A stretch of DNA of 36,755 bases from a virus. Below, piece by piece: positions 5,831 to 21,788 of this stretch (the first letter of the stretch is position 1; the number at the start of each line of letters is the position of its first letter). The notes beneath the pieces are model-generated. The model was not told the origin of the DNA, searched no databases, and was given only the letters and a program-made list of their open reading frames with translations. Location: positions 1 to 36,755 of the IMG/VR virus record IMGVR_UViG_3300035703_000231; one strand, written 5' to 3'. A program made the position numbers and the translations under genes.

Positions 5831-6051
5831 TCAGTGAAGTTGATCTGCGTGATTGGATTCACCTGAAGCCTGTTGAGTTATACGCAGTGCCACGTCATAA
5901 CTACGTTAAGTTTTGTGATCAATACTTTTATTTTGATCATCTCGACGGCATGTATTCCTATTGCCTCGACATGACGGGTAAACTATTTCATATTCCGGCA
6001 GCAGCACAAGTAACCCCGTTACGCAAACGAAAGGATGAAGATGAATCGTGA
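5827..6051 (+). CDS. Small protein, unknown function
   Basis: 74 residues, rich in Tyr, His and Asp ('YVKFCDQYFYFDHLDGMYSYCLDM'), with two Cys. ATGA overlap with the preceding gene. The end overlaps the start of the ADP-ribosylglycohydrolase gene by 11 bases. No family is recognised. Confidence 0.6.
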   Translation: MISEVDLRDWIHLKPVELYAVPRHNYVKFCDQYFYFDHLDGMYSYCLDMTGKLFHIPAAAQVTPLRKRKDEDES

Positions 6052-6877
6052 TCAAGTTGTAGGCATGTTTGTTGGTGCGTTCTTGGGCGACATGCTCGGC
6101 GCACCGTATGAGTTTCAAGAACCCATGTCCCCGAACGACGTCAAGCTGACGACGGGCGGCACACACGAAGTGTCGTTGGGTGAGTACACAGACGACGGCG
6201 CGTTGACGCTTGCCCTTGCTGAGACATACGTTGCACGTCGTTGCTTCAATGCCGACGACGCGATGATGCGCTTCAAAGATTGGCGCAGGACGGGCGCATA
6301 CGGCACTCGGGGTTACGTCTTCGACATTGGGCGCACGACGGCAGCAGCAATCGACCGCATGGAGCATGACCGACCCTTTGCTGCCACTGGCGGCACTCAC
6401 GATAGCGGTAACGGTAGTCTGATGCGGATTGCCGCATGCCTTGCTGCCAATCACAACAACAGCATGCAAGCGCTTGCTGACGCTGTCGCCGCAAGCTTGA
6501 TGACACACGGCAACGCTGACGTGTTGAACTACACTGCTGCCTTCGTTTCCGAAGTGATGGGGCCAGTGAACCCCGCCTTCCATCGTCTTTATTTCAATCC
6601 GACAATGACCCGCGAAAAGAAAGGATCAATCATGTACGCTTTCAATGCGGCGCGTCACGCAGTACACTACGGACGTGGCGACGGTGGCGCAACGCTGCGT
6701 CATGCTGTGTCGTACGGATGGGACACCGACACCAACGCTTGCATTGCAGGCATGTGGGTTGGCGCAAAGGAAGGCATTGGTTGCTTCCCAATGCAGTATG
6801 TCGACGCGCTTCAGAATAAAAAGCGCATTTTCGAAGTTGCTAATGCTCTGTACGAGCTAGGAGAACGAAACAAATGA
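6041..6877 (+). CDS. ADP-ribosylglycohydrolase (DraG/ARH family)
   Basis: 278 residues from the ATG at 6041, which has AAAGGA at proper distance; the ATG at 6035 is too close to it. Family motifs in order: 'GAFLGDMLGAPYEF' near the N-terminus, 'EYTDDGALTLALAE' (metal-binding Thr-Asp-Asp), 'GGTHDSGNGSLMRIA' and a C-terminal 'GWDTDTNACIAGMWVG' carrying the second Asp pair. DraG/ARH enzymes use two Mg2+ or Mn2+ ions to remove ADP-ribose from proteins (Arg or Ser) or nucleic acids. In a phage this could reverse host defence or the phage's own ADP-ribosylation; a candidate transferase is encoded at 21821-23620. The substrate cannot be read from sequence. Confidence 0.85.
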   Translation: MNRDQVVGMFVGAFLGDMLGAPYEFQEPMSPNDVKLTTGGTHEVSLGEYTDDGALTLALAETYVARRCFNADDAMMRFKDWRRTGAYGTRGYVFDIGRTTAAAIDRMEHDRPFAATGGTHDSGNGSLMRIAACLAANHNNSMQALADAVAASLMTHGNADVLNYTAAFVSEVMGPVNPAFHRLYFNPTMTREKKGSIMYAFNAARHAVHYGRGDGGATLRHAVSYGWDTDTNACIAGMWVGAKEGIGCFPMQYVDALQNKKRIFEVANALYELGERNK

Positions 6878-8007
6878 CAACGCCCCTTCACCTTCGCTTT
6901 CGCAACACAGACATTTATTACAACCCGCCACAGTCTGCGGTTGATGCGGGCGTGGTGAAGCGCAAATCTTTTCCCTCCGCGAAACAAGACGAAGCTATTG
7001 CATATGCTGACGAGTGCAACGCTCGCATCGAAGAATGGCGCACAGAGATGAAGCACATCTCTGGTTTGCAGAAAGACGGCAAAGTTAAAGACGTCATCTT
7101 TGCATATCTGCACAGTGTCGACTTCACTAAGCTGACTGACATCACGAAGCGGCAATATAAAATTGCCATCGACGCATGGCGCAATGTGCGTGTTGCAGGA
7201 CTTGCATTGCAGCATCATAAGCTGTCTACGTTGGAAACGCCCATGATTCAGCGCATGTATGACGAGGAGACACGCAGGACGACAACGCACACTGCCAACT
7301 ACAACATGACGGTGTATCGTGTTGTCCTCAACTATGCTATTCGTTGCGGATACACTCGGCACAATCCGTTTGAGAAAGTGCGTAAGCAAACGGTGAAGAA
7401 GCGCAAGGTGATGTGGGAGCGCACCAATGTGCTTGCGTTTCTGAATACGTCGTTTAGTCGGTGGCAGTGGCGCAATGCGGGCCTCATCTTCTACATGATT
7501 TACGAATGGGGACAGCGCGTCAGCGACATCCTCAAACTTAAATGGGAGAACATTGACTTCGAAACCAACACCGTCACGATTACACAAAGTAAGCGTGGCG
7601 CGACAGTGAAGTTGCCAATCTCGCCGGGACTTGGTAAAATGCTTCAGCAGCAGAAAAACGACTTCGTCTTGTCGGAATATGTTGCTCCGCAGATGGTAAG
7701 GCGTCACGGCAAGTTCGTACCGTACAGCATCAGTACGATCAACAACTACGCAACCGACATCATGCGGGAAGCGAAGCTCGACAGAGAGCTACAGCTTCGG
7801 GATCTGCGTCGAACTGCCATCACTGAAACTATTGAGAACGGTGGCGACTTGTTGACAGTGATGCAGATGAGTGGTCATCAACACGCTGCGTCTGTTACGC
7901 CCTACTTCGTTCACACTCGCAAGGGTGCGGCAAAGGCGCAAGAGATTAGGCAATTTCCTCAACAACTTATTCAGCAACAAGCGATGTTGCAAAGGAGTGC
8001 AAGATGA
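6874..8007 (+). CDS. int: Tyrosine recombinase / integrase
   Basis: 377 residues with an N-terminal SAM-like core-binding domain (about 70-170) and a catalytic domain. Active-site elements: R215 in 'EWGQRVSDILKLKW', K240 in 'TQSKRG', R312 in 'RDLRRTAIT', H335 in 'MSGHQH' and Y344 in 'TPYF'. The usual His of the HxxR box is Arg (R309). The gene lies in the early block, ATGA-coupled on both sides, not beside a repressor. It suggests a temperate or formerly temperate phage, or a role in resolving genome forms. No attP core or tRNA fragment could be recognised nearby. Confidence 0.9.
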   Translation: MTTPLHLRFRNTDIYYNPPQSAVDAGVVKRKSFPSAKQDEAIAYADECNARIEEWRTEMKHISGLQKDGKVKDVIFAYLHSVDFTKLTDITKRQYKIAIDAWRNVRVAGLALQHHKLSTLETPMIQRMYDEETRRTTTHTANYNMTVYRVVLNYAIRCGYTRHNPFEKVRKQTVKKRKVMWERTNVLAFLNTSFSRWQWRNAGLIFYMIYEWGQRVSDILKLKWENIDFETNTVTITQSKRGATVKLPISPGLGKMLQQQKNDFVLSEYVAPQMVRRHGKFVPYSISTINNYATDIMREAKLDRELQLRDLRRTAITETIENGGDLLTVMQMSGHQHAASVTPYFVHTRKGAAKAQEIRQFPQQLIQQQAMLQRSAR

Positions 8008-8964: not shown

Positions 8965-9257
8965 CTAAGGAAGAACTGATCCGCATGGCGCGGGAGGCCG
9001 GTTGGGAATATGCAGACGATGACCGTGGCTTTGAACCCCTTTGGCACTTCGCCGCCCTTGTCGCCGCTGCCGCAGTGCGTGAGACATCAGCGGAGTACCG
9101 CCTTGGTTGGAACGATGGCGCAATGATGGAGCGCGAGGAGTGTGCAAAGTTGGCCGATGCTGAACTGCGCAACTTGGTTGTACTAACAAGTTGGCCGGGG
9201 CAGTCAAGCGCCGCTTTCAACATTGCAAAAGCCATCAGAGCAAGGGGGCAGGAATGA
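8961..9257 (+). CDS. Small phage protein, unknown function
   Basis: 98 residues, 'MTKEELIRMAREAGWEYADD' then 'LWHFAALVAAAAVR' and a C-terminal 'NIAKAIRARGQE'. This arrangement (MAREAG..., FAALVAAA..E, AIRARG) is a familiar accessory protein type in betaproteobacterial phages, with no known function. ATGA-coupled on both sides. Confidence 0.65.
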   Translation: MTKEELIRMAREAGWEYADDDRGFEPLWHFAALVAAAAVRETSAEYRLGWNDGAMMEREECAKLADAELRNLVVLTSWPGQSSAAFNIAKAIRARGQE

Positions 9258-9457
9258 AAGTCGGACGAACAATCGCCCTAGTTGTATTGTTGACATGGGT
9301 CGCCGTATACTTGATGGTGTCATTCGTGACGTGGCAGATCGATGCGTCGCAATGGCAGGAAGAAACACGATTTATGTGCGCGTTTCTATTCGTACTACTT
9401 TCACCATTTGCGGCGATGGTAGGACACGATCTATCTCTAACCAAGGATAAAAAATGA
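9254..9457 (+). CDS. Two-span membrane protein
   Basis: 67 residues from the ATG at 9254 (GGCAGGA upstream, ATGA overlap). There are two hydrophobic segments, about residues 7-25 and 42-58, linked by a polar loop rich in Gln/Glu. No family is recognised. Confidence 0.6.
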   Translation: MKVGRTIALVVLLTWVAVYLMVSFVTWQIDASQWQEETRFMCAFLFVLLSPFAAMVGHDLSLTKDKK

Positions 9458-9597
9458 GCGGATGGTTAATTGCATTGACGGGTGTCATCTATCTCTGCGT
9501 AGCTCTTGAACAGTTGTACAAAGGCAACACACCAATGTTCATTTGCTACATTGGCTACGCTATTGGTAACATTGGACTTTACAGGATGGCAACATGA
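9454..9597 (+). CDS. Two-span membrane peptide
   Basis: 47 residues, MSGWLIALTGVIYLCVALEQL... then FICYIGYAIGNIGLYRM. AAGGA lies upstream and there are ATGA overlaps on both sides. The 'GWLIALTGVIY..VALEQL..GN...' form resembles small phage membrane proteins whose role is unknown. Confidence 0.6.
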   Translation: MSGWLIALTGVIYLCVALEQLYKGNTPMFICYIGYAIGNIGLYRMAT

Positions 9598-9866
9598 GTG
9601 AACTACGCAACGCAGTGATAAACGTTCTAGACTTTCTAGAATTTGGTGGACGCAGACACGACCGTGTCTTTCATGTTGATGCTTTGAAGGAGGCTTTACG
9701 AAATGATCAAACAACTGAAGCAAGTGATGAAGTCGATTGTAGACAGTGTCGACATTTGGATCGAAAGAAAAATTGTTCAAGCGAGTCCCCTTGCTCCAAC
9801 GGAGACAAGTTCGATGGACTACCGAGGCTGCGACTATATCTTACAGATTCAAATCAAGAAGTGTAG
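9594..9866 (+). CDS. Small cysteine-motif protein
   Basis: 90 residues, ATGA-coupled to the preceding gene. The C-terminal half has CRQCRHLDRKKNC followed by PCSNGDKFDGLPRLRLY, a four-cysteine arrangement suggesting a small metal site. I have an impression of similar 'C..C...C...PC.NGDKF' C-termini in other phages. It overlaps the next gene by 53 to 164 bases depending on the start used there. Confidence 0.55.
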   Translation: MSELRNAVINVLDFLEFGGRRHDRVFHVDALKEALRNDQTTEASDEVDCRQCRHLDRKKNCSSESPCSNGDKFDGLPRLRLYLTDSNQEV

Positions 9867-10008
9867 CGATAGCTTGTTCTGGTACCACCGAGAAATTGGG
9901 GGCACCTTCATGGTGGAAGCTCAAGACCAAGATAGATATTGGGTGCGGGAACCTGATGAACATCGCTGTCTCAACTTTGTCTTGAAGAAAGACGCTGTTG
10001 TCCTATGA
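9703..10008 (+). CDS. Phage protein, unknown function, long out-of-frame overlap
   Basis: 101 residues if started at 9703, which has an ideal AAGGAGG 10 bases upstream, or 64 residues if started at 9814 (ACGGAG upstream). The part after 9814 ('YILQIQIKKCSDSLFWYHREIG...DQDRYWVREPD') looks like a compact conserved beta domain, so at least that part is real. Starting at 9703 would overlap the cysteine-motif gene by 164 bases in another frame. The ATG of the next small frame overlaps its stop (ATGA). Confidence 0.6.
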   Translation: MIKQLKQVMKSIVDSVDIWIERKIVQASPLAPTETSSMDYRGCDYILQIQIKKCSDSLFWYHREIGGTFMVEAQDQDRYWVREPDEHRCLNFVLKKDAVVL

Positions 10009-10034
10009 CCACATCTGCACGAAAGGTGAAGAAG

Positions 10035-10151
10035 ATGAAACCACGCAATCCAGTTGCAGTGCCCGCCGCCGTTCGTGGAGGTGCGGGAAAACATCGAAAC
10101 AAAAAGAAGGACGCAAGACATGGGGTTTCTAAGAACACACGTTTCGTGTGA
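10035..10151 (+). CDS. Small basic protein
   Basis: 38 residues starting MKPRNPVA and continuing GGAGKHRNKKKDARHG, strongly basic. GAAAGG lies 8 bases upstream of this ATG. The same frame could begin at 10005, where it is ATGA-coupled to the preceding gene. The 'K-x-RNPVA...G.H..KKK' pattern recurs in small phage proteins of unknown function. It overlaps the first 32 bases of the primase-helicase gene. Confidence 0.5.
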   Translation: MKPRNPVAVPAAVRGGAGKHRNKKKDARHGVSKNTRFV

Positions 10152-11739
10152 CGAATGCGGCAGTAGCGATGCCCGAAGTATCAACATCGACGGCAGCAGT
10201 TACTGCTTCTCTTGCAATCACTACACTCCACCAGACGACGAAATCGTTGTCGAATATTCCAGACCCATCCAAAGGAAAGCGAACATGAACTTCAAAGCGC
10301 ATTTTGACAATAACGACTCTCCCTCCATCAGCGCACGTCGCTTGACCAAGGCAACCACTGAACGCTATGGCGTTACGTCAGATAGCAACAACTATTATTT
10401 CCCGTATTACGACGACAACGGTACGCTTGTTGCCGCAAAAGTGCGTAACAAAGCTGAAAAGAAATTTACCACCGAAGGTGAGTGGACAAAGTCGACCTTG
10501 TTTGGACAACAACTGTTCAGCAGCGGTGGCAAGTACATCACCATTACTGAGGGCGAATTCGACGCGTTGGCGGTGTTTCAAGCCACCGGCAGCAAGTGGC
10601 CCTGCGTCAGCATTCGCAACGGCGCCACCGGCGCATTGAAGGACTGCCGCGCAGCATACGAATGGCTGAACAGTTTCGAAAGCATCGTCGTCTGCTTTGA
10701 CAACGACGAACCCGGCAAGAAGGCAGCAAAGGAAGTTGCAGAACTCTTCGGCAGCAAGGCGAAGGTGTACAAGCATGACGTCGACATGAAGGACGCATGC
10801 GACTACATTGCTGCAAATAAAGAAGCCATCTTTGTGCAGCGGTGGTGGGGCGCTGAGGCATACATCCCTGACGGCATTGTTGCCGGTAATAATTTGTGGG
10901 ATCTGGTGTCGACTCCTCCTGCCCCGGCGCAATGTATGTACCCGTGGGATGGGCTAAACGCGCTGACGTATGGTATTCGACATGGCGAACTTGTCACTGT
11001 CACTGCGGGTAGTGGATTGGGCAAGTCGCAGTTGCTTCGTGAAATTGTTTGGCATCTGCTGTGCAACACCGAAGACAATATCGGACTGATGTTCCTTGAG
11101 GAAGGCATTCGCAAGACGGGCCTGTCTGTTATGTCGCTTGCTGCCAACAAGCCGTTGCATCTGCCCGACACGGTGGCGAGCGACGAAGAGCGCAAGGACG
11201 CATTCGAACGGACGTTGGGCACGGGTCGACTGTTCCTGTTCGACCACTTCGGTAGCACCAGTGTTGACAACATCATCAATCGTGTGCGCTATATGGCGAA
11301 GGCGCTCAATTGCAAATATGTTTTCGTTGATCACATTTCCATCATCGTGTCAGCGCAGGAGAGCGGCGACGAGCGCAAGGCAATCGATGAGATTATGACG
11401 AAGCTTCGAATGTTGGTGCAGGAAACAAACATCGCATTGTTTGCTGTGTCACACTTGAAGCGTCCTGACGGGCGTGGTCACGAAGAAGGCGCAGCTACTT
11501 CGCTTGCCCAACTTCGTGGAAGCGGCTCAATTGCTCAGCTTAGTGACATCGTTCTCGGTGCTGAGCGTAACGGTCAGGAAGAAGACATGACCAAGCGCAA
11601 CACGACGTACTTGCGTGTGCTAAAGAATCGTTACAGCGGTATGACCGGGCCTGCATGTTCGTTGTTGTACACGAAGGAAACCGGTCGCATGCTTGAGTAC
11701 ACGCCTCCCCCGGAGGACGAAGACGACGACGTGCTGTGA
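10120..11739 (+). CDS. T7 gp4-like primase-helicase
   Basis: 539 residues; the ATG at 10120 has AGAAGGA 8 bases upstream, and the extension to 10054 has none. The zinc-binding domain has C10/C13/C29/C32 ('SCDEC', 'CFSC'). The TOPRIM primase core has EGEFDA (144-149) and CFDNDE (192-197). The RecA-like helicase has Walker A 'AGSGLGKSQ' (about 296-304), Walker B 'YVFVDHISI' and 'VSHLKRP'. The protein primes lagging-strand synthesis and unwinds DNA 5' to 3' as a hexamer. The C-terminus is very acidic (EDEDDDVL), as in T7 gp4 where the tail docks on the polymerase, and is almost repeated at the end of the ssDNA-binding protein. Size is close to T7 gp4A (566). Confidence 0.93.
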   Translation: MGFLRTHVSCDECGSSDARSINIDGSSYCFSCNHYTPPDDEIVVEYSRPIQRKANMNFKAHFDNNDSPSISARRLTKATTERYGVTSDSNNYYFPYYDDNGTLVAAKVRNKAEKKFTTEGEWTKSTLFGQQLFSSGGKYITITEGEFDALAVFQATGSKWPCVSIRNGATGALKDCRAAYEWLNSFESIVVCFDNDEPGKKAAKEVAELFGSKAKVYKHDVDMKDACDYIAANKEAIFVQRWWGAEAYIPDGIVAGNNLWDLVSTPPAPAQCMYPWDGLNALTYGIRHGELVTVTAGSGLGKSQLLREIVWHLLCNTEDNIGLMFLEEGIRKTGLSVMSLAANKPLHLPDTVASDEERKDAFERTLGTGRLFLFDHFGSTSVDNIINRVRYMAKALNCKYVFVDHISIIVSAQESGDERKAIDEIMTKLRMLVQETNIALFAVSHLKRPDGRGHEEGAATSLAQLRGSGSIAQLSDIVLGAERNGQEEDMTKRNTTYLRVLKNRYSGMTGPACSLLYTKETGRMLEYTPPPEDEDDDVL

Positions 11740-11921
11740 TGGAGTCGCCTTGTATTAAACTGTGTCGCTTACACAACGGTGTCTGTACCGGGTGTAAGCG
11801 CACCGTTGACGAAATCACGCAATGGGCTAGAATGACCGACCTTCAACGACGCAACATCATGGAGCAACTACATGCCAGAAATACTGATGGAGATCATCAC
11901 CTTCCTACTAAACCTCTTTGA
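11739..11921 (+). CDS. DUF1289 family protein
   Basis: 60 residues, the ATG overlapping the primase-helicase stop by one base. 'SPCIKLCRLHNGVCTGCKRTVDEITQW' is the DUF1289 signature: four cysteines in C-x3-C-x6-C-x2-C order, then a short helix 'MTDLQRRNIM'. The family is common in Proteobacteria and is presumed to bind a metal or iron-sulfur cluster; its role is unknown. Its position inside the replisome gene group is unusual. Confidence 0.75.
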   Translation: MESPCIKLCRLHNGVCTGCKRTVDEITQWARMTDLQRRNIMEQLHARNTDGDHHLPTKPL

Positions 11922-11940
11922 CATCTTTCGGAGTCTGTGA
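11872..11940 (+). CDS. 22-residue amphipathic peptide between DUF1289 and polymerase genes
   Basis: The ATG at 11872 has GGAG 7 bases upstream. The peptide is MPEILMEIITFLLNLFDIFRSL, an almost uninterrupted hydrophobic/amphipathic helix. Its TGA overlaps the polymerase ATG (TGATG). It overlaps the DUF1289 gene by 50 bases in another frame. It may be a real micropeptide or a translational coupling device. Confidence 0.4.
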   Translation: MPEILMEIITFLLNLFDIFRSL

Positions 11941-14054
11941 TGGATTTCGTATTCGACATTGAGACTTACCCCAACTGCTTTTCGTTCATCGCTGTTTCAG
12001 CCGACAAACTGGAGAAAGTGACATATGAATGTTCTACTCGAAAGAATCAAGTCGCAGACTTGTTTGCATTTCTTGATCGTTTGCGCGATCAACAACACCG
12101 CATGGTGGGCTTTAATAATCTTGGCTTTGACTACCCTGTCATCCACGATCTTCTGAGCGTTCGCGAAAAGGCTGTCACTGTAAGCGGTAAAGCCGTTGCT
12201 GTGCGTGCCTATAAGAAGGCGATGGAAATCATCAAGAGCGAGGACAAGTTTGAGCACGTCGTTCGCACATCGGACGAATATGTCCCGCAAGTTGACTTGT
12301 ACAAGATTCATCACTTCGACAACAAAGCGCGTTCAACGTCGTTGAAGATGCTTCAGTTTAATATGCGAAGCGACACCATCGAAGACTTGCCGTTCGATGT
12401 TGGTACGCAATTGACTGACGATCAGATCGACGTGCTGTTGTCCTATAACGCGCACGACGTGTGGCGCACCCTCGACTTCTACAATGAGAGCAGGGGTGCT
12501 ATTAAGTTTCGTGAAGAGTTGACGCAGAAGTATGGGCGAAACTTCCTCAATCACAATGACACAAAGATCGGCAAGGACTACTTCGTCATGCGTCTTGAGG
12601 AAGAACTGCCGGGTAGCTGCTACAGCTACGACAGCAAGGGTCGACGCAGCATCAATCAAACAAAACGCAAAGTCATCAACATCAAGGAATGCCTCTTTGA
12701 TTATTATGACTTTCATCGTCCTGAGTTTCAGGCAGTGTTCGATTGGTTTGCGGGTCAGAAGATTACCGAAACCAAAGGTGTATTCTCTGAAATTGACGAA
12801 GCTGACTTGGGCGACGTGGCGCAATACGCACAACTGTACACAAAGCGTAAGAAGTTTCCGCGTGTACCTTCGTTCGAAGACATTGACGATTTCAAGAAGC
12901 AACATCCTCTCGGTTGGGTGGAGAAGGTGGAGTTGAAGGCTAAGAAGAAAGGCGAAGCGCAATATTCACATTGGATGTGTTGGAAAGAAGCGGATAACCT
13001 CAACGTGATTGTTGACGGCTTCCGTTTTGACTTCGGTACTGGTGGCATTCATGGCAGCTTGGAAAACACAATTGTTGAAGCTGATGACGACTGCATCATT
13101 GTTGATGCGGACGTGTCTTCCATGTATCCGAATATCGCCATTGCCAATCGTGTATACCCAAAGCATCTGTCTGAGAAGTTCTGTGACATTTACGAAGACG
13201 TCTACAACCAACGCAAGAGCTACGCTAAGGGCACGGCAGAGAATGCCATGTTGAAGCTTGCATTGAACGGTGTGTATGGCGACAGCAACAGTCAGTACAG
13301 TCCCTTCTATGATTCGCAGTACACGATGAGCATCACCATCAACGGACAACTTAGCCTGTGCTATCTGGCTGAGCAGTTGTTGAAGATTCGTGGCATGCAA
13401 ATTATTCAGGTCAACACCGACGGTATCACTGTGAAGTTCCCGAAGAAGTATCGTCGGTGGTATGACACGGCATGTAGGCAGTGGCAGGAAAACGTTGGTC
13501 TTGAGTTGGAGTTCGCAGAGTATTCGAAGATGTTCATCCGTGACGTCAACAACTACATTGCGGTCTACACAAATGGCAAGACAAAGCGCAAAGGCGTGTA
13601 TCAGTATGAAGGACTCGGATGGCATCAGGATCAGGGCGGACTCATCATTCCCCAAGCTGCTGAAGCTCACATGCTCAACGGTGTTGACATTGAGAAATAC
13701 ATCCGCGATAATTCACACCGTGTTCACGACTTTATGATGCGAACGAAGGTGCCTCGCAGCAGTCGACTTGTACTGGTACAGGAAGATGGTAGCGAGGTAC
13801 AGCAGCAGAACATCTGCCGTTACTACGCAAGCATCAACGGGGGTAAGCTGATCAAGATCATGCCCGCGCTGACACCGGACGGTGACCCGCGCAGGATTGG
13901 TATTGATACAGACTATCTGTTGAAGACGTGTAACAACATGAAGGACTTTGGCGACGACATTGACTACCAATACTATGTCGACGCAGCAAAGAAGTTGCTG
14001 ATTAACAACACTGACGAAGGGGTTGTTGACAGAACTGAGGCAGCGTTCCTATAA
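11940..14054 (+). CDS. Family-B-like DNA polymerase with 3'-5' exonuclease
   Basis: 704 residues. Exonuclease motifs: ExoI 'FDIETYPN' (5-12), ExoII 'GFNNLGFDYPVI' (about 56-67) and ExoIII 'YNAHDVWRTLDF'. Polymerase motif A 'DADVSSMYPNI' matches the family B DxxSLYP, motif B 'KLALNGVYGDSNS' matches KxxxNSxYG with the Lys shifted, and motif C 'VNTDGITV' matches the DTD turn with Asn in the first position. Thumb residues 'SMFIRDVNNYI' follow, similar to the KKRY region. It replicates the phage genome with proofreading. The start at 11940 has CGGAG 7 bases upstream. T7-type phages use a family A enzyme, so this pairing with a T7-like primase-helicase is a mixed replisome. The replacement in motif C is odd for this family. 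Confidence 0.85.
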   Translation: MDFVFDIETYPNCFSFIAVSADKLEKVTYECSTRKNQVADLFAFLDRLRDQQHRMVGFNNLGFDYPVIHDLLSVREKAVTVSGKAVAVRAYKKAMEIIKSEDKFEHVVRTSDEYVPQVDLYKIHHFDNKARSTSLKMLQFNMRSDTIEDLPFDVGTQLTDDQIDVLLSYNAHDVWRTLDFYNESRGAIKFREELTQKYGRNFLNHNDTKIGKDYFVMRLEEELPGSCYSYDSKGRRSINQTKRKVINIKECLFDYYDFHRPEFQAVFDWFAGQKITETKGVFSEIDEADLGDVAQYAQLYTKRKKFPRVPSFEDIDDFKKQHPLGWVEKVELKAKKKGEAQYSHWMCWKEADNLNVIVDGFRFDFGTGGIHGSLENTIVEADDDCIIVDADVSSMYPNIAIANRVYPKHLSEKFCDIYEDVYNQRKSYAKGTAENAMLKLALNGVYGDSNSQYSPFYDSQYTMSITINGQLSLCYLAEQLLKIRGMQIIQVNTDGITVKFPKKYRRWYDTACRQWQENVGLELEFAEYSKMFIRDVNNYIAVYTNGKTKRKGVYQYEGLGWHQDQGGLIIPQAAEAHMLNGVDIEKYIRDNSHRVHDFMMRTKVPRSSRLVLVQEDGSEVQQQNICRYYASINGGKLIKIMPALTPDGDPRRIGIDTDYLLKTCNNMKDFGDDIDYQYYVDAAKKLLINNTDEGVVDRTEAAFL

Positions 14055-14055
14055 T
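14026..14055 (+). promoter_or_regulatory. Perfect sigma70 consensus promoter P6
   Basis: TTGACA at 14026-14031, 18-base spacer, TATAAT at 14050-14055; both hexamers are consensus. It lies in the last codons of the polymerase gene and drives the ssDNA-binding protein gene, with predicted transcription start near 14062. Confidence 0.85.
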
Positions 14056-14063
14056 GCTGACTT

Positions 14064-14096
14064 ACCACGAAGCCGCACCGTGGTTCATTGTGCGGC
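14064..14096 (+). promoter_or_regulatory. H-type RNA pseudoknot in the ssDNA-binding protein leader
   Basis: Stem 1: ACCACG (14064-14069) with CGTGGT (14079-14084), 6 pairs. Stem 2: GCCGCAC (14072-14078) with GTGCGGC (14090-14096), 7 pairs. Loop 1 is AA, there is no base between stem 2 left and stem 1 right, and loop 3 is TCATT. All pairs are Watson-Crick. The lengths are those of a classical coaxially stacked pseudoknot. It begins about 2 bases after the predicted transcription start and ends 8 bases before the AAAAGGA site. T4 gene 32 mRNA has an autoregulatory pseudoknot in the equivalent place. Confidence 0.75.
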
Positions 14097-14118
14097 AACT
14101 CTGAAAAGGAAAACCATT

Positions 14119-14526
14119 ATGGCTGAAACTCAAATCGTGAAACTGAAGGCTGACATCATGTGGGCACAACTCGACAAGGTCAACGAAATGTCGGGCAAGT
14201 ATCAGGTGAACCTGTGCAACCTCTCTGATGCCGCTGTGCAGGCGCTTGAGGACATTGGTATCCCCGTTGCCGAAAAGGAAGGACAGGGTCGCTTCATCAC
14301 TTGCAAGTCGGCTAACCCGATCAAGGCATTTGATGCTGATGGCGACGAGATCGTCGGCGTGAAGGTTGGTAACGGCAGCAAGGCAAAGGCCGTCATCAAC
14401 CCCTACGAGTGGAAGTACAAGAATAAAAAGGGTGTGTCCCCGTCCCTTCGTAAGCTTGTTATCACTGACTTGATTGAATACGGTGGTGGCGATACCGCTG
14501 CTCTGGACGACGACGAAGTGCTGTAA
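14119..14526 (+). CDS. Single-stranded DNA-binding protein (T7 gp2.5-like role)
   Basis: 135 residues. The start at 14119 is set by AAAAGGAAAA; longer forms would include the leader. A single beta-rich domain of OB-fold character ('YQVNLCNLSDAAVQALEDIGIPV', 'GRFITCKSANPIKAFD', 'GSKAKAVINPYEWKYKNKKGVSPSLRKLVITDLIEY') resembles phage ssDNA-binding proteins of the type found between polymerase and exonuclease genes. The C-terminal tail ALDDDEVL is acidic, as in T7 gp2.5 and T4 gp32. It would coat ssDNA and contact polymerase and helicase. It has its own consensus promoter and a pseudoknot leader, so it is probably made in quantity and autoregulated. Confidence 0.75.
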   Translation: MAETQIVKLKADIMWAQLDKVNEMSGKYQVNLCNLSDAAVQALEDIGIPVAEKEGQGRFITCKSANPIKAFDADGDEIVGVKVGNGSKAKAVINPYEWKYKNKKGVSPSLRKLVITDLIEYGGGDTAALDDDEVL

Positions 14527-14528
14527 CA

Positions 14529-15371
14529 ATGAAGTCGCTCCTTGATGCCGACGTAATGGCTTTCAGGGCAGCGGCTGCTTGTAAAGAAGAAAGCGTCAGT
14601 GCTGCGCTGTTCACCGTGGACAGCATTGTCACTGACGCTTTGCTTTATTGCGATGCCGAAGATCGGTATTGCGACAAGTGGCAACTGTATCTGACAGGCA
14701 GCAACAACTTCCGCAAAGACATTGCCGTCACTGCACCCTACAAAGGTAACCGCACTTCACCAAAGCCTGAGCACTTACCCGCTGTACGCGAGCATCTAAT
14801 CAGTAAGTGGGGGGCAGTTGTTGCTGAAGGACAGGAGGCAGACGACGCAATTGCCATCGAAGCGACGAAGCTGCTAGACAAATGCGTAATGATTAGCGTG
14901 GATAAAGACTTTCGTCAGATCCCCGGCTATCACTACAACTTTGTCAAGCGTGAACATTTCTATGTCAGCGCTGAAGATGGGATACGGTTTCTGTATAAGC
15001 AAGTGTTGATGGGCGACAGCACCGACAACATCATCGGCTTACATGGCATCGGCCCAAAACGCGCAGACGCGTTGTTGCAAGACTGCAACACAGAGCAGGA
15101 CATGTTTGACGTGTGTGTTAAGGCATACGACAATCGTGACCGCGTTATCGAAAACGCAAGACTTCTTTACCTCAGACGAAAGGAAAACGAACTATGGTTG
15201 CCCCCGGACGAACGCTCGGTGAAGTTCTCAAAGAAAAGCTCGACCAAATCGAAAGCGGTGAGTACAAGCAGTACACCACCGTCTACGACGTCGACACCTT
15301 CGCCCAAACCGAAGCGAAGAAAGAAGTTGGACGCAAGTACGACAACGGCAAGCCCCGATACGGATTGCTGA
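14529..15371 (+). CDS. 5'-3' exonuclease (FEN / T7 gp6 type)
   Basis: 280 residues. Metal-site motifs are 'LLDADVMAF' (N-terminal Asp), 'YKGNR', 'EGQEADDAIAI', 'MISVDKDFRQIPG' and the helix-3-turn-helix 'LMGDSTDNIIGLHGIGPKRADALL' (about 158-181). The enzyme would remove RNA primers and degrade host DNA, as T7 gp6 does. The start lacks a clear Shine-Dalgarno site and sits 2 bases after the ssDNA-binding protein stop, implying coupling. The last 60 residues are low-complexity Ser/Thr/Pro/Lys and lie entirely over the next gene in another frame, so the functional protein probably ends near 'ENELWLPPDE'; the tail is a by-product of the overlap. Confidence 0.88.
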   Translation: MKSLLDADVMAFRAAAACKEESVSAALFTVDSIVTDALLYCDAEDRYCDKWQLYLTGSNNFRKDIAVTAPYKGNRTSPKPEHLPAVREHLISKWGAVVAEGQEADDAIAIEATKLLDKCVMISVDKDFRQIPGYHYNFVKREHFYVSAEDGIRFLYKQVLMGDSTDNIIGLHGIGPKRADALLQDCNTEQDMFDVCVKAYDNRDRVIENARLLYLRRKENELWLPPDERSVKFSKKSSTKSKAVSTSSTPPSTTSTPSPKPKRRKKLDASTTTASPDTDC

Positions 15372-15634
15372 AGCCTTATTCTCTTGAAGAAGTGGTGAAG
15401 GTGCTGACGTATGGTGCCAACAAGTACAGCGCCGACAACTGGAAACATGTTGACGACATGGAGAATCGCTACTTCGACGCAGCGCAACGCCACATGTGGG
15501 CGTATCGTCGCGGAGAACTGCGTGACCCTGAGTCGGGGATGCATCATCTGGCGCACGCAATGTGTAGTCTGATGTTCATTCTCGAAACCGAAATGGAACG
15601 CGAACGTGCCTACAAAGAAGAAGTCCCCTTCTAA
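15194..15634 (+). CDS. dATP/dGTP diphosphohydrolase-like protein (DUF5664, MazG superfamily)
   Basis: 146 residues, GAAAGGA upstream. The block 'KYDNGKPRYGLLKPYSLEEVVKVLTYGANKY' then 'NWKHV', 'RYFDAAQRHMWAYRRGE' and 'DPESGMHHLAHAMCSLMFI' is the signature of the phage family typified by the dATP/dGTP diphosphohydrolase (MazZ type) that cuts dGTP or dATP to the monophosphate. The Glu, His and Asp residues in these blocks supply the metal site. In phages with 2-aminoadenine DNA a MazZ enzyme works with PurZ; no PurZ is visible here, and many family members occur without it. It overlaps the exonuclease gene by 178 bases and the HNH gene by 29. Confidence 0.75.
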   Translation: MVAPGRTLGEVLKEKLDQIESGEYKQYTTVYDVDTFAQTEAKKEVGRKYDNGKPRYGLLKPYSLEEVVKVLTYGANKYSADNWKHVDDMENRYFDAAQRHMWAYRRGELRDPESGMHHLAHAMCSLMFILETEMERERAYKEEVPF

Positions 15635-16016
15635 GGGTCGTAACGGCGGGCAGTGGACGGAGGCACGATTTCGAAGTTTCGTAATCAGCGCACTCCGCGC
15701 TGCCTCCCGTCGATGGCCCGTGAAGTGGGCGGTATTGAAGGCAGCATTTGTTGGTAAGACGATCAACAAAAAGACGGGGAAGTTGGCAATGCATTACAAA
15801 TGCAACGAGTGCAAAGCCAATTACCCTGCTGCCGAAGTGGTTATTGACCACATCGATCCGGTTGTGGATACAATGAAGGGCTTCACCACATGGGACGACT
15901 ATGTCGAACGCATGTTTGTGGAGGCAGAGGGTCTTCAGGCACTATGCAAAGAGTGTCATAAGATCAAGACAGACAACGAACGAAAGGAACGCAAAAATGC
16001 TAAACATTCAGATTGA
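15606..16016 (+). CDS. HNH endonuclease-like protein
   Basis: 136 residues from a GTG start. The N-terminus is basic (KKKSPSKGR), a central helical part follows ('FRSFVISALRAASRRWPVKW'), and the C-terminal half is HNH-like: CNEC (zinc), 'VVIDHIDPVV' (HNH His-Asp), then 'GLQALCKECHKIKTDNER' (second Cys pair and His). This type, with nuclease domain and replication-gene neighbours, is frequent in tailed phages and appears resident rather than homing. No ATG start exists in the frame. It overlaps both neighbours. Confidence 0.75.
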   Translation: MPTKKKSPSKGRNGGQWTEARFRSFVISALRAASRRWPVKWAVLKAAFVGKTINKKTGKLAMHYKCNECKANYPAAEVVIDHIDPVVDTMKGFTTWDDYVERMFVEAEGLQALCKECHKIKTDNERKERKNAKHSD

Positions 16017-16272
16017 CGAAGAGACTTTTGAACAAGTAATGGTGGAGCATCTCAAGAACACCGCTTTCGCATCTTTGGAAGATGCGAAGTATCTGCGACA
16101 CCCTCAAGACGCAGAGTTTCACTCTAAACTGCTTCCCGCACTGCTCACCGTCATTTCTTACTTCTCAACGGCAAACGACTACAGGAAATTCACCGCTGAG
16201 TTGTTTACAAAGACAGAAGAAGAAGTTGACGATGATTTCCAGTTTTCGTTTCATTTCGAGGATGAAGAGTAA
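15997..16272 (+). CDS. Small acidic phage protein
   Basis: 91 residues from the ATG at 15997 (GAAAGGAACG upstream; the longer frame to 15901 has no site). It is helical, with 'HSKLLPALLTVISYFSTANDYRKFTAELF' and an acidic C-terminus (DFQFSFHFEDEE). Similar proteins occur in phages, with unknown function. The stop overlaps the next ATG by one base. Confidence 0.65.
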   Translation: MLNIQIDEETFEQVMVEHLKNTAFASLEDAKYLRHPQDAEFHSKLLPALLTVISYFSTANDYRKFTAELFTKTEEEVDDDFQFSFHFEDEE

Positions 16273-16460
16273 TGGAAGTCACTCTGATTCGTGAAAACGA
16301 AGATGGTAGCGCTGATTACACATTCAATATGACGGACGATGAAACGCAAGCGCTGATTCGTTTTGCCATCATCGAAGCGTTGAAGCGTGCAGTCGAAGAA
16401 GGAAATAAACTTCAAGTTAAGGAAGACGATGAAAGTAACGACGGTTTGGGCAACACCTGA
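16272..16460 (+). CDS. Small acidic phage protein
   Basis: 62 residues, MEVTLIRENEDGSADYTFNMTDDETQALIRFAIIEAL...: a beta hairpin followed by a long helix. This form is recurrent among short phage proteins, often beside the preceding gene type. It overlaps thyX by 32 bases. The function is unknown. Confidence 0.65.
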   Translation: MEVTLIRENEDGSADYTFNMTDDETQALIRFAIIEALKRAVEEGNKLQVKEDDESNDGLGNT

Positions 16461-17055
16461 TGCGGAACGGATGATCGCGTACATGGCGCGAGTGTCCAAT
16501 CCCGCAAATCAGACGAATGAGAAGTATGTGCCGCTGATCAAGTATCTGATCAAGCATAAGCACTGGAGTCCTTTTGAGATGGTCAACGTCTGCATGGAAA
16601 TCGAATGCACCCGCGACATTGCTCGACAAGTCTTGCGTCATCGCAGCTTTAGTTTCCAAGAGTTCAGTCAGCGCTATGCAGTTGCTGACGGTTATGAATT
16701 CTCAGAAGCTCGGCTGCAAGACGAGAAGAATCGGCAGAACAGCATTGCTGTTGAAGACCGCGAACTGTTGCAGTTTTGGGACGAACAACAGCAAGACGTG
16801 TTGGCGGCAGCAAAGCGTGCATACGAGAACGCGCTTAACGCAGGCATCGCCAAAGAGGTTGCCCGCAAGGTGTTGCCGGAAGGACTGACAACGAGTCGAA
16901 TGTACATGAATGGCACGTTGCGTAGTTGGCTGCACTACGTTGACATTCGTTGTGGTATTGAAACTCAAAAGGAACATCGCGACGTTGCTTTGGCGTGTCG
17001 TGAAGAACTGTGGAAGCATTTCCCTAACGTAATGGAGGCGTGTGTTGGAGTTTGA
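16429..17055 (+). CDS. thyX: Flavin-dependent thymidylate synthase ThyX
   Basis: 208 residues from the ATG at 16429 (AAGGA 6 bases upstream). The ThyX motif RHRSFSFQEFSQRY (about residues 70-83) is intact, as are 'HWSPFEMVNV' and the C-terminal 'GLTTSRMYMNGTLRSWLHYVDIRC' that forms part of the dUMP/FAD site. The enzyme makes dTMP from dUMP with methylene-tetrahydrofolate and NADPH, feeding phage DNA synthesis. It forms a nucleotide group with MazG and the class II ribonucleotide reductase. Confidence 0.95.
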   Translation: MKVTTVWATPDAERMIAYMARVSNPANQTNEKYVPLIKYLIKHKHWSPFEMVNVCMEIECTRDIARQVLRHRSFSFQEFSQRYAVADGYEFSEARLQDEKNRQNSIAVEDRELLQFWDEQQQDVLAAAKRAYENALNAGIAKEVARKVLPEGLTTSRMYMNGTLRSWLHYVDIRCGIETQKEHRDVALACREELWKHFPNVMEACVGV

Positions 17056-17356
17056 TAGTTATCAAGAAAAGGCGTGGGGGTTTGCCATGTCATCGGCTAA
17101 GACGACGGAATATCTCATTCCCGGCTTAGGCGGCGAAGTCGGTGAACTGCAAAGCCTCATCGCCAAGTCTGTCCGCGACGGCAAAGACCTGAGCTATGCT
17201 GATTTGTCAAAAGAATTGGGAGACATTCTGTGGTTTGTTTCGTCAATCGCTTTCTTTTACGGCATCCCGTTGAGTGTCATTGCAGAGAAGAACATCAACA
17301 AGCTTGATAGTCGACAACAGCGTGGGGTTATCGGTGGTAGTGGTGACAACCGATAA
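17042..17356 (+). CDS. mazG: MazG-type nucleotide pyrophosphohydrolase
   Basis: 104 residues. The start is GTG at 17042 or more likely TTG at 17045, 6 bases after GGAGG. The MazG fold motif 'GLGGEVGELQSLIAKSVRDGK' (EExxE-like) and 'LSKELGDILWFVSSIAFFYG' (ExxD-like) supply the Mg2+-binding acids. It hydrolyses NTPs or dNTPs to monophosphates. A role against (p)ppGpp has been proposed for phage MazG proteins, and dUTP or damaged nucleotides are alternatives. It overlaps thyX by 14 bases. Confidence 0.85.
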   Translation: MLEFDSYQEKAWGFAMSSAKTTEYLIPGLGGEVGELQSLIAKSVRDGKDLSYADLSKELGDILWFVSSIAFFYGIPLSVIAEKNINKLDSRQQRGVIGGSGDNR

Positions 17357-17370
17357 CGTTCTGGTATAAC
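17343..17370 (+). promoter_or_regulatory. Promoter P7 with extended -10
   Basis: GTGACA at 17343-17348, 16-base spacer, TATAAC at 17365-17370 preceded by TGG, an extended -10 (TGnTATAAC). A GC-rich hairpin follows 7 bases after the predicted start. Confidence 0.6.
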
Positions 17371-17383
17371 ATTCGCCCCTCAG

Positions 17384-17403
17384 CGCCGACCACTGCGTCG
17401 GCG
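17384..17403 (+). promoter_or_regulatory. GC-rich hairpin after P7
   Basis: CGCCGAC (17384-17390) pairs with GTCGGCG (17397-17403), loop CACTGC, followed by TTGTTGT. It may be a terminator for the thyX-mazG transcript with a weak T tract, or a 5' stabiliser of the transcript from P7. Confidence 0.5.
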
Positions 17404-17429
17404 TTGTTGTCTCAACAAAGGAAAAATAC

Positions 17430-17525
17430 ATGGATATTGACATTTCAAACGAACACACTCATAACGGAAAGACACAATGGAGGTGTCATGGAACAGAAGC
17501 AATGTGCCACATGCGAGAAAACTAA
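17430..17525 (+). CDS. 31-residue frame, possible remnant in front of the homing endonuclease
   Basis: An ATG at 17430 has a strong AAAGGA site 6 bases upstream and is the first start behind P7. It encodes MDIDISNEHTHNGKTQW... and then runs out of frame into the HNH gene, stopping at 17525. It looks like the start of a gene whose body has been displaced by the HNH insertion, or a leader peptide coupled to the HNH start at 17488. Confidence 0.4.
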   Translation: MDIDISNEHTHNGKTQWRCHGTEAMCHMREN

Positions 17526-18003
17526 GCCGTTATCAGATTTTCCCGCCCAAACTAGACGATCTGGATCGCTTTATTATCGACCCCACTGTTATTCATGCAA
17601 GTATGACAAAGAAGTCTTATCTGGCAGAGTAACGGATAAGCAGTATTTGAAAGAATACTATTATTCTAATAAACTGGCGTTCAAATATAAAGCATATCGA
17701 CACGGTGACTTGACTAGGTTTGGCTCTGCATGCGAGACTATCGACCGAGACAGCGCCGTCAGGATGATGATGCAGTCGTGTGTATATTGTGGTGTGGAGA
17801 AAAGTCATGGGTTAGATCGCAAGGATAGTAGCAAGGGACATAGCGATGACAATGTTGTTCCTTGCTGTGAGAAATGTAATTTTATTCTTGGCGACTTACC
17901 AAATGACGCAAAAGTTTTGTTGAAAACTGGACTGACAGAAATTAGAGAAAAAGGATATTTTGAATCATGGACAATACCAACCAAGCGAAAGAAAACATCG
18001 TGA
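17488..18003 (+). CDS. HNH homing-type endonuclease
   Basis: 171 residues; GGAGG 4 bases before the ATG. The N-terminus is a zinc finger 'CATCEKTKPLSDF....CYSC', then a basic linker, then the HNH core 'CVYCGVEKSHGLDRKDSSKGHSDDNVVPCCEKCN' (about 114-147) with two Cys pairs and the His. This pattern is typical of free-standing phage homing endonucleases that cut alleles lacking them next to conserved genes. The coding sequence is AT-richer than its neighbours (many AAA, TAT, TTT codons), and its last 37 bases overlap the ribonucleotide reductase start, which supports recent insertion. Confidence 0.85.
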   Translation: MEQKQCATCEKTKPLSDFPAQTRRSGSLYYRPHCYSCKYDKEVLSGRVTDKQYLKEYYYSNKLAFKYKAYRHGDLTRFGSACETIDRDSAVRMMMQSCVYCGVEKSHGLDRKDSSKGHSDDNVVPCCEKCNFILGDLPNDAKVLLKTGLTEIREKGYFESWTIPTKRKKTS

Positions 18004-19904
18004 CCCCTTGGTCTACCATTGGACTAATTACTTATAAAAGGACATACGCCCGTCGTCTGAACGAGCAAGACGTCAACTCTCCCACTGAAGAGTTTGACGA
18101 CACCATCAATCGCGTCATTACCGCCGCTAATGCCCAACTCGGCTGCAACTTCACCGACGAAGAGCAGGATCGCCTGCGTCGCTACATGCTTGAACTGAAG
18201 GGCACCGTTGCCGGTCGATTCCTGTGGCAACTCGGCACCGACACCGTTGGTCGACTCGGTCTGTCGTCGCTGCAAAACTGCGCCTTCACCGTCGTTGACA
18301 AGCCGGTTGAGCCGTTCACTTGGGCTATGGATTTGCTGATGCTCGGTAGCGGCGTTGGTTACAACATTCAGCGCGAGAACGTGGACAAGCTGCCCCCGGT
18401 CAATGACAACTTCAAGACGCCTGTCCGCACTGACAGCGCTGATGCTGACTTCATCGTGCCTGATAGCCGTGAAGGTTGGGTTGCCCTGCTCGGCAAGACG
18501 CTCAAAGCCGCCTTCCTTGCCCACAAGAGCGGCAAGCAGACGTTCACCTATTCGACGCAACTGATTCGCTCTAAGGGTGCTCCTATCAAGGGCTTTGGCG
18601 GTACTGCCAGTGGCCCCGAGGATCTGGTGTGGGGAATCAGCGAAATCGGTAAGGTGTTGGAGAAGCGTGCCGGTAAGAAGATTCGTCCCGTTGATGCTCT
18701 CGACATGATGAATATTATTGGCGCTGTTGTGGTTGCCGGTAATGTGCGTCGCTCGGCACAGATTGCCATTGGTGATCCTGACGATGTCGAATATCTGTTG
18801 GCTAAGCGTTGGGACATGGGCAACATTCCTTCGTGGCGTGCCATGTCGAACAACAGCGTTGTTTGCCACGACGTGACCGACCTTCACGACTTCTTTTGGG
18901 ACGGATATGAAGGCAAGGGTGAACCCTATGGCTTGATCAATCTGAAGCTGTCGCGCAAGATTGGTCTGCTCGGTGACACCCGTTATCCCGATCCGAAGGT
19001 GCAGGGCTACAACCCCTGTGCCGAACAGAGTCTTGCAGATAAGGAAACGTGTTGCCTTGCCGAAATCTTCCTACCCAACATCTCTTCGTATGAGGAATTT
19101 GTTGACGTGGCAAAGTTGCTCTATCGCATTAACAAGCATTCGCTTGCTCTGCCGTGCCATCTGAAGGGTACGGAAGAAATTGTGCATGCCAATATGCGGA
19201 TGGGCATCGGAGTCACTGGCGTGCTGCAATGCACCGAAGAGCAGAAGGGTTGGTTGCGTCGCGCTTATGACGAACTGCGTGCGTTTGACAAGCAATACAG
19301 CGAGGCTAACAACTTCCCTGAATCGGTGAAGCTGACGACAGTGAAGCCGTCTGGTACGCTGTCGTTGCTGCCCGGTGTCACTCCCGGTTGTCATCCTGCG
19401 TATGCTCGGTTCATGATTCGTCGTATTCGTATCAGCAGCAATCACCCTCTGGTGCAAGTCTGCCGCGACCACGGCTATCATGTCGAGTATCAGCAGAACT
19501 TCGACGGTAGTGAAGATCGTAGCACGGTGGTAGTGTCGTTCCCGTTCCGTCATCCCGACACTGCGGTGTTGGCGAAGGACATGACTGCCATCGATCAATT
19601 GGAGACAATTAAGTGGCTGCAAGAGAACTGGAGCGATAACAGTGTTAGCTGCACTGTCTATTATCGCAAGGAAGAGTTGCCCGAGATTCGTAAATACTTG
19701 AAGAAGTATTACAAGAACTCGCACAAGAGTCTGTCGTTCCTGTTGCATTCGGAACATGGTTTCAAGCAAGCACCGCTTGAGGAAATCACCGAAGAGCAAT
19801 ACAATGCACTGGTGGCTTCGACCCGGCTGATTACGAAGGTTGAAGAGGCTAACATTGGATTGGACGATAGCGAATGTGCAGGGGGTGCTTGCCCGATTCG
19901 CTGA
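17967..19904 (+). CDS. nrdJ: Class II (adenosylcobalamin-dependent) ribonucleotide reductase
   Basis: 645 residues, similar in plan to the monomeric Lactobacillus leichmannii enzyme (739). Catalytic groups: C105 in 'LQNCAF' and C362 in 'ETCCLAE' form the reducible pair; N349, C351 (thiyl radical) and E353 lie in 'YNPCAEQ', and the C351-C362 distance matches the family. 'VKPSGTLSLLPG' is the phosphate loop. The C-terminal CAGGACPIR carries the Cys pair that reloads the active site. It makes deoxynucleotides independent of oxygen but needs B12 from the host. The start at 17967 lies inside the HNH gene with AAAGGA 12 bases upstream. A strong terminator follows. Confidence 0.95.
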   Translation: MDNTNQAKENIVTPWSTIGLITYKRTYARRLNEQDVNSPTEEFDDTINRVITAANAQLGCNFTDEEQDRLRRYMLELKGTVAGRFLWQLGTDTVGRLGLSSLQNCAFTVVDKPVEPFTWAMDLLMLGSGVGYNIQRENVDKLPPVNDNFKTPVRTDSADADFIVPDSREGWVALLGKTLKAAFLAHKSGKQTFTYSTQLIRSKGAPIKGFGGTASGPEDLVWGISEIGKVLEKRAGKKIRPVDALDMMNIIGAVVVAGNVRRSAQIAIGDPDDVEYLLAKRWDMGNIPSWRAMSNNSVVCHDVTDLHDFFWDGYEGKGEPYGLINLKLSRKIGLLGDTRYPDPKVQGYNPCAEQSLADKETCCLAEIFLPNISSYEEFVDVAKLLYRINKHSLALPCHLKGTEEIVHANMRMGIGVTGVLQCTEEQKGWLRRAYDELRAFDKQYSEANNFPESVKLTTVKPSGTLSLLPGVTPGCHPAYARFMIRRIRISSNHPLVQVCRDHGYHVEYQQNFDGSEDRSTVVVSFPFRHPDTAVLAKDMTAIDQLETIKWLQENWSDNSVSCTVYYRKEELPEIRKYLKKYYKNSHKSLSFLLHSEHGFKQAPLEEITEEQYNALVASTRLITKVEEANIGLDDSECAGGACPIR

Positions 19905-19923
19905 TAATCCAGTGATATAACGG

Positions 19924-19957
19924 AGCCGCTGTTGGGAAACCTTCAGCGGCTTTTTTC
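19924..19957 (+). terminator. Intrinsic terminator after the ribonucleotide reductase gene
   Basis: AGCCGCTG (19924-19931) pairs with CAGCGGCT (19944-19951), followed by TTTTTT. An extended -10-like TGATATAAC (19913-19921) lies immediately upstream but has no -35 partner. Confidence 0.9.
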
Positions 19958-19970
19958 ATAAAGGAACTCA

Positions 19971-20738
19971 ATGAAGCGTGCTGCCAAGACCGTCACTGAA
20001 CGTGTCAGGAAAGAAAAGTTTGTTCGTGATGATTTCCCCGTTCTAACTCCTAGAAACGAAAATCAAAAGATACTTCTTGAAGAGCTAAGGCGTAGCACAT
20101 TAGTAGTTGCAGCGGGCAGTGCAGGAACGGGCAAGACCATTATGGCTTGTTGGCATGCGGCCAAGAAGCTGCATCACGGCGACGTGAAGAAGGTAGTACT
20201 CATCAGGGCATACCAACCCCTCGCGGGGCGGTCTATCGGGTTCCTGCCGGGTTCTCTTGACGAGAAGCTGATGCCTTACTATCAGCAGATGATTGACTAC
20301 TTCGAAGACTATCTCGGCAAAGCCACCACTGAGATTCATCTTAAACAAAAGACGATTGAGATTTGTTCGCTTGAAACTATTCGCGGACGCTCTTGGGAAA
20401 GGGCCATCATCATCGTTGACGAGGCGCAGTCGCTATTCGTTCCCGAAGTGCAGGCGCTTGTCACTCGCATCGGTGAAGGCAGTCAGATGATCTTCTGCGG
20501 TGACAACAGCGGAACGCAAACAGATGTCCGAGTCGGCACAGACGGCTTGACATACCTAGAGCAGCTTGTGGTACGATACGACATAGCCGACACCGCTTTC
20601 GTCAAGTTCACCCGCGACGACATTGTGCGATCAGGCATCACGAAGGAATTCGTTGTTGCATTCGAAGAGGAACTATGCAGGCGTGACCCGCTAGTTACTC
20701 TGGCTGATATTGATAAACAATTTAAGAAGGGTAGATGA
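19971..20738 (+). CDS. phoH: PhoH-like ATPase
   Basis: 255 residues, AAAGGAACTCA upstream. Walker A 'GSAGTGKT' (49-56), 'RAYQPLAGRSIGFLPGSLDEKL' (PhoH signature, about 79-100), Walker B 'IIIVDEAQ' (146-153) and 'MIFCGDNSGTQTD'. PhoH proteins are RecA/SF1-type P-loop ATPases common in phages, with reported roles in RNA processing or phosphate stress but no settled function. It lies immediately downstream of the terminator and heads the last group of rightward genes. Confidence 0.93.
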   Translation: MKRAAKTVTERVRKEKFVRDDFPVLTPRNENQKILLEELRRSTLVVAAGSAGTGKTIMACWHAAKKLHHGDVKKVVLIRAYQPLAGRSIGFLPGSLDEKLMPYYQQMIDYFEDYLGKATTEIHLKQKTIEICSLETIRGRSWERAIIIVDEAQSLFVPEVQALVTRIGEGSQMIFCGDNSGTQTDVRVGTDGLTYLEQLVVRYDIADTAFVKFTRDDIVRSGITKEFVVAFEEELCRRDPLVTLADIDKQFKKGR

Positions 20739-20929
20739 TGGAAGTGTTGATTCGCACGCGATTGGGTATCGGGCTTGATATTGAGCACAACGAAGAAATT
20801 TGTTATCGCGCAGAAGATGAGAAGGGTAAAGAAGTATTGCTTTGCTATGTTGGACTGCTGATAAAGGTTCCGTTTTTGACGATCCACATCGGTGACTTCG
20901 TAGACCGACGGGACATGGCTGATGATTGA
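20735..20929 (+). CDS. Small protein, unknown function
   Basis: 64 residues (63 from the second ATG at 20738), overlapping the phoH stop. Beta-rich with alternating charged residues ('VLIRTRLGIGLDIEHNEEI', 'KVPFLTIHIGDFVDR'). The position and ATG overlap imply coupling. No family is recognised. Confidence 0.55.
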   Translation: MMEVLIRTRLGIGLDIEHNEEICYRAEDEKGKEVLLCYVGLLIKVPFLTIHIGDFVDRRDMADD

Positions 20930-21610: not shown

Positions 21611-21788
21611 AGGCACCATCATTCTCAAGGCGACGGAAGACGCGCTTGACATGTTCGTCAGCAGCGGATTGACGAAGGAAGAGGTGATGGGTTTGTTGTT
21701 TGAGGCGCTGTCGGCATTGGACGACAACGAAACGCCACTGGATGAGCCACTCCCGTCAGGGTCATTAGGCGTCGGACAACTTCAATAA
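21588..21788 (+). CDS. Small acidic protein, last gene of the rightward block
   Basis: 66 residues from the ATG at 21588 (AAAAAGG upstream; GTG at 21582 is an alternative). Helical and acidic ('MGLLFEALSALDDNETPLDEPLP'). It is followed 9 bases later by the bidirectional terminator. No family is recognised. Confidence 0.5.
   Translation: MQQNESLEGTIILKATEDALDMFVSSGLTKEEVMGLLFEALSALDDNETPLDEPLPSGSLGVGQLQ

Follow-up and report, generated by a model that had tools for sequence, protein, structure and literature searches.

A conserved H-type pseudoknot in the leader of a predicted gp2.5/Enc34-type single-stranded DNA-binding protein gene of uncultivated phages

The window analyzed in this work is the whole of an uncultivated virus record, 36,755 bases in length. 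Genes for a DNA polymerase, an ssDNA-binding protein (SSB) and a 5'-3' exonuclease follow one another on its plus strand; the exonuclease gene probably shares the SSB transcript. The SSB gene is preceded by a sigma70-type promoter, an H-type pseudoknot composed of two interlocked stems (S1 and S2) with loops L1 and L3, and an A-rich linker holding the ribosome-binding site (Table 1). Elsewhere in the window there are genes for an integrase (6874-8007), an ADP-ribosylglycohydrolase-like protein (6035-6877), a ribonucleotide reductase (17967-19904) and a PhoH-like protein (19971-20738).

Table 1. Features of the SSB locus in the window.
Feature	Coordinates	Strand	Evidence or remarks
Upstream DNA polymerase gene	11937..14054	+	phrog_1252, E=2e-184
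Sigma70-type promoter TTGACA-18-TATAAT (TTGACA 14026-14031, spacer 18 nt, TATAAT 14050-14055)	14026..14055	+	Direct reading and promoter scan
S1 5' strand ACCACG	14064..14069	+	Direct reading; two-sided changes in 5/6 S1 pairs among relatives
L1 AA	14070..14071	+	First A in 18/18 distinct versions, second A in 17/18
S2 5' strand GCCGCAC	14072..14078	+	S2 cells 100% paired; 6/7 pairs with two-sided changes
S1 3' strand CGTGGT	14079..14084	+	Direct reading and relatives
L3 TCATT	14085..14089	+	AATT ends L3 in most relatives
S2 3' strand GTGCGGC	14090..14096	+	Direct reading and relatives
A-rich linker with ribosome-binding site AAAGGA (14105-14110)	14097..14118	+	Family linkers 17-23 nt, 53% A
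Predicted ssDNA-binding protein gene (135 aa, gp2.5/Enc34-type OB fold, acidic C-terminal tail; ATG at 14119)	14119..14526	+	PHROG 112, E=1.2e-10
Downstream 5'-3' exonuclease gene	14529..15371	+	phrog_107, E=2.5e-65

Judged by profile searches and a structural model, the product of the SSB gene is a gp2.5/Enc34-type OB-fold ssDNA-binding protein. The PHROG 112 family of gp2.5-like ssDNA-binding proteins was matched by 32 of the 43 aligned family members, while no Pfam match was obtained for the protein. The top solved structures for its AlphaFold2 model (pLDDT 81.7) included the Enc34 SSB and T7 gp2.5, together with 4jg2 and 4klk, both phage-related (Foldseek E values from 4e-7 to 3e-5); T4 gp32 was absent among the structural matches listed. 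The VIA Z scores were 12-13 for the closest structures, 12.0-12.5 for T7 gp2.5 and the Enc34 SSB, and 6-7.5 for ordinary SSBs. The acidic tail of the window SSB ends in DDDEVL, and ends of this type with a hydrophobic last residue occur across the alignment. The protein is thus assigned to the same family and predicted fold as T7 gp2.5 and the Enc34 SSB, in agreement with the original prediction, made from the sequence of the window, that it is of a different type from T4 gp32.

The same prediction had placed a perfect consensus promoter ahead of the pseudoknot, and the promoter scan bears this out, as the match at 14026 is the sole 12/12 match within positions 9000-22000. The -10 box and the polymerase stop codon overlap, and the last base of the promoter lies 8 nt ahead of the pseudoknot. 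A second, near-consensus promoter (TTGACA-17-GATAAT, 13684-13712) is located within the polymerase gene approximately 350 nt upstream. The SSB promoters of three other loci (L026, L029 and L040) contain an inverted repeat, CACAC..GTGTG, in the spacer, a possible transcriptional operator.

Direct reading of the leader confirmed both stems exactly where they had been predicted, with all six pairs of S1 and all seven pairs of S2 formed and with loops of 2, 0 and 5 bases, the zero meaning that the S2 5' strand runs straight into the S1 3' strand. The pseudoknot is 33 nt long and, as anticipated, ends 8 bases ahead of the Shine-Dalgarno site. In a search of both strands of the window by a pseudoknot finder with a simple stack-energy/nearest-neighbour model, it was the top H-type candidate, and when the leader was shuffled 4000 times with its dinucleotides preserved, no shuffle equalled its score. 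A nested-only folder draws S2 but cannot represent S1, and the support for S1 therefore comes from covariation.

The IMG/VR collection was searched with the SSB and its diverged homologues, which yielded several hundred loci. The pseudoknot type is present in 40 of 141 distinct SSB leaders, with 17 distinct cores; the alignment comprises 18 distinct versions, namely these cores and one row (L255) in which S2 is perfect and S1 is broken. Comparison of the leaders of related phages for covariation of both stems, which had been put forward as a check of the original prediction, revealed two-sided changes in 11 of the 13 pairs, a count that comes from related sequences of one family of uncultivated phages and may be inflated, as the counting tool warns. 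Standard pairs occupy 94.4% of the cells of the alignment; when the columns were shuffled this share was 68.7%, and for slid structures it was 28-46%. In S2, no cell of the 18 versions is unpaired. The relatives contain four versions of S1 (CACG, TGCG, CAGG and TAGG), each with its matching partner, and about a dozen S2 sequences, all paired (GCCGCAC, GCUACAG, GCCACUG, GUUUCCC, GCUGACC and GCCUACC among them). The loop of S2 encloses the S1 3' strand, so that when the two stems both covary, it is a pseudoknot that covaries. Across the family, S1 has 4-6 pairs, L1 is nearly always AA, S2 has 7 pairs, no base separates the stems, L3 usually ends in AAUU, and the distance from the pseudoknot to the AUG stays at 17-23 nt in all relatives that carry the element. 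The A content of the family linkers (Table 1) compares with 25% for the window, and A is abundant at other ribosome sites of the window as well. The paired changes of the stems, together with the kept shape and position, identify the pseudoknot as a real control element: it is an RNA structure maintained by selection.

Two explanations that do without an RNA structure were rejected on covariation. It is extremely improbable that the stems are inverted repeats that arose by chance within a narrow phylogenetic sample: kinship among the sequences can inflate covariation counts, but the outcome of the 4000 shuffles, the low pairing of the slid structures against 94% and the complete pairing of all S1 and S2 variants argue otherwise. 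Nor are the repeats at all likely to be a DNA operator for a transcription factor acting at the promoter, as might be suggested by S1, which on DNA is an inverted repeat close to the predicted transcription start. An operator would keep its bases, whereas here both stems change freely with compensation; moreover, the two repeats are interlocked, and loci with no recognisable promoter still have the element.

The pseudoknot is tightly linked to one gene. When 2.9 million viral contigs were scanned with a sequence pattern, 30 contigs matched, and in 29 of 29 with readable downstream DNA the SSB gene was found directly downstream. A structure-based scan, which demanded pairing, AA or AC in L1 and AUU ending L3, was applied to 3.9 Mb of DNA, mostly flanking SSB genes, and gave 32 strict sites, all of them SSB leaders bar one at a contig end. 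With the covariance model, exactly one significant copy was detected in each of 16 phage contigs (30-62 kb); in the window, only the SSB leader was significant (E=2.3e-8), the next match having an E value of 0.1. In a collection of bacterial and archaeal genomes, a protein search found no relatives of the SSB, and the pattern for one pseudoknot variant had no match. The upstream context varies: the gene ahead of the pseudoknot may encode the window's polymerase type, a PolA-family polymerase (PF00476, E values of 9e-53 and 5e-48) or an endonuclease VII, and a promoter can be recognised in some of these settings but not in others. These varied upstream genes and promoters indicate that the pseudoknot follows the SSB gene rather than the promoter or the upstream gene.

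The same comparison qualifies the proposed location of the pseudoknot at the 5' end of the mRNA. In the window this position is predicted from the promoter, and in relatives with the window's polymerase type the -10 box lies mostly 7-9 nt ahead of the pseudoknot, that is, the pseudoknot stands at the predicted transcript start. Such a position is not essential, however, since the element is kept behind the PolA-family polymerases, where it would be internal in the transcript given the lack of a recognisable promoter. This bears on the possibility that the pseudoknot alone, with no protein ligand, sets translation or mRNA stability by protecting the 5' end from decay or by positioning the 30S subunit. 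Its usual place just past the -10 box and 8 bases ahead of the Shine-Dalgarno site would suit such a role, which we nevertheless regard as unlikely: the element is retained where it would be internal, a general stabiliser is not expected ahead of a single gene only, and the loop bases are conserved while the stems vary, a combination that suggests specific contact. The pseudoknot might instead sense another ligand, such as ribosomal protein S1, a host RNA-binding protein, another phage protein or a metabolite, as small H-type pseudoknots do elsewhere. We consider this quite unlikely in view of the association with the SSB alone, no other gene of the 16 phage contigs having a significant copy, and of the lack of any Rfam 15 match for the leader, either at the gathering threshold or at E values up to 5. 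A known parallel in its favour is ribosomal protein S15, a single regulator of several unrelated autoregulatory leader structures in different lineages (PMC4137082, PMC5100602).

On the SSB tree, which rests on few columns and has many unresolved forks, the pseudoknot type is strongly clustered (4 changes versus a shuffled mean of 24.3). One SSB nested in the pseudoknot clade (L017) has a leader from which the element has been lost; the short stretch upstream of it is similar to the last part of the endonuclease VII gene of another locus, L018, which retains the pseudoknot. Several sister SSB clades are without the window-type pseudoknot, and no pseudoknot candidate was found in the leader of T7 gene 2.5; HTVC115P has a weak candidate. 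Given the absence of the pseudoknot from these sister clades and from the T7 leader, gp2.5-type SSBs do not all need it.

Other structures were found in the leaders of the sister clades. Type B leaders (L045, L110, L125, L237, L254, L256, L310, L312 and L058) have a variable 5' hairpin, then a conserved CGGYAUAG, then a covarying hairpin of 4 pairs with the loop CYCGNUAGC. In type B, CGG could also pair with YCG to form a pseudoknot, but this is not claimed because the S1 helix that it would need shows no two-sided changes. In type C leaders (L026, L029, L388 and relatives), a hairpin ATACCA..TGGTAT occupies the last ~27 nt before and into the start codon, with the Shine-Dalgarno site in the loop and the start codon at the 3' strand; compensated variants (ATAGCA/TGCTAT and ATACTA/TAGTAT) exist, and 2 of the 6 pairs are compensated. 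Type G leaders (L258, L264, L325 and L372) contain AGATC-A-GTTGT-GATCT-AAA-ACAAC shortly after TATAAT, a five-pair pseudoknot-like element with partly compensated variants, which is a candidate for either a tiny H-type pseudoknot or a DNA operator. Type D (L073 and L170) is represented by a single known sequence, ACGTTA att AGGC TAACGT cata GCCT, which is also pseudoknot-like. Although there are few sequences per type, these sister leaders suggest that RNA-level control is a general theme of this SSB gene. The likeness to the S15 RNAs is that homologous genes have unlike leader structures from lineage to lineage; the two cases differ in that the regulator here would be the SSB and that the remaining SSB leader types have only partial support.

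The closest known counterpart of the window pseudoknot is the gene 32 operator of T4, T2 and RB69, likewise an H-type pseudoknot upstream of the ribosome site of an SSB gene. In T4, the pseudoknot is where gp32 binding is nucleated, and from there the protein extends across the ribosome site; autorepression has been demonstrated (PMC535899, PMC3014915). Between the pseudoknot and the start lies a less structured tract of >40 nt with UUAAA/UAAA repeats (PMC535899). In the T4 record, gene 32 is preceded by a leader with an S1 of 4 pairs, an L1 of one A, an S2 of 7 pairs, no inter-stem base, an L3 of 5 and 39 nt to the AUG. It shares with the window pseudoknot the 7 pairs of S2, the absence of an inter-stem base, an L1 made only of A, the L3 of 5 and an A-rich linker. 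The resemblance to the T4 operator claimed in the original prediction thus holds for the H-type pseudoknot at the ribosome-binding site of an SSB gene. The long T4 tract of UUAAA repeats, however, has a short A-rich linker in its place: these repeats are absent from the window's short linker, and the 17-23 nt to the AUG in its family are about half the T4 length. The proposed separate origin of the two elements is supported, as the RNA sequences are unrelated (a search of the T4 gene 32 region with the covariance model of the window pseudoknot, filters disabled, did not match the T4 operator) and the protein is of the gp2.5/Enc34 type and not a gp32 homologue. Literature searches, whose coverage took in only a minority of subscription journals, listed no title or abstract that describes a pseudoknot in the leader of a gp2.5-type SSB.

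Taken together, these comparisons make it probable, in our judgement, that the leader is a cis-acting translational operator for self-repression by the SSB, as in the case of gp32 in T4. In favour of an operator we count the covariation of the two stems with its shuffle and slide controls, the SSB-only position, the fixed spacing to the AUG, the A-rich linkers, the persistence across upstream contexts, the OB-fold nucleic-acid-binding product and the T4-like geometry; against it we count the linker length and the lack of UUAAA repeats in the window, together with the sister clades and the T7 gene 2.5 leader in which the pseudoknot is missing. According to this model, SSB left free once the phage ssDNA is saturated would recognise the pseudoknot with its conserved loops and spread from there onto the short A-rich linker holding the Shine-Dalgarno site. 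Translation of the SSB would thereby be shut off by the SSB itself, and its level would track the ssDNA pool, as that of gp32 does. Whereas repression has been demonstrated in T4, here we infer both the binding and the repression.

A broader reading, which we hold only tentatively, is that phage SSB genes repeatedly and independently gain leader RNAs for self-control by unrelated SSB families. The structures that can be cited for it are the window pseudoknot, the hairpin with a possible pseudoknot, the tiny element at the transcript start and the hairpin at the ribosome site, all from sister clades of one SSB family. Under this reading, the geometry common to T4 and the window (a 7-pair S2, no inter-stem base and one or two A in L1) would be convergent, being suited to an OB-fold protein that nucleates on the single-stranded RNA beside it.

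If self-repression by the SSB is true, the leader would be a second, independently evolved case of the self-limiting switch of T4 gene 32, with a different SSB family, an unrelated RNA sequence, a near-identical geometry and strong comparative support. It is an old question how a protein that binds ssDNA with indifference to sequence picks out its own mRNA, and the natural variants described here, with compensated stems and fixed loops, would make that question directly testable.
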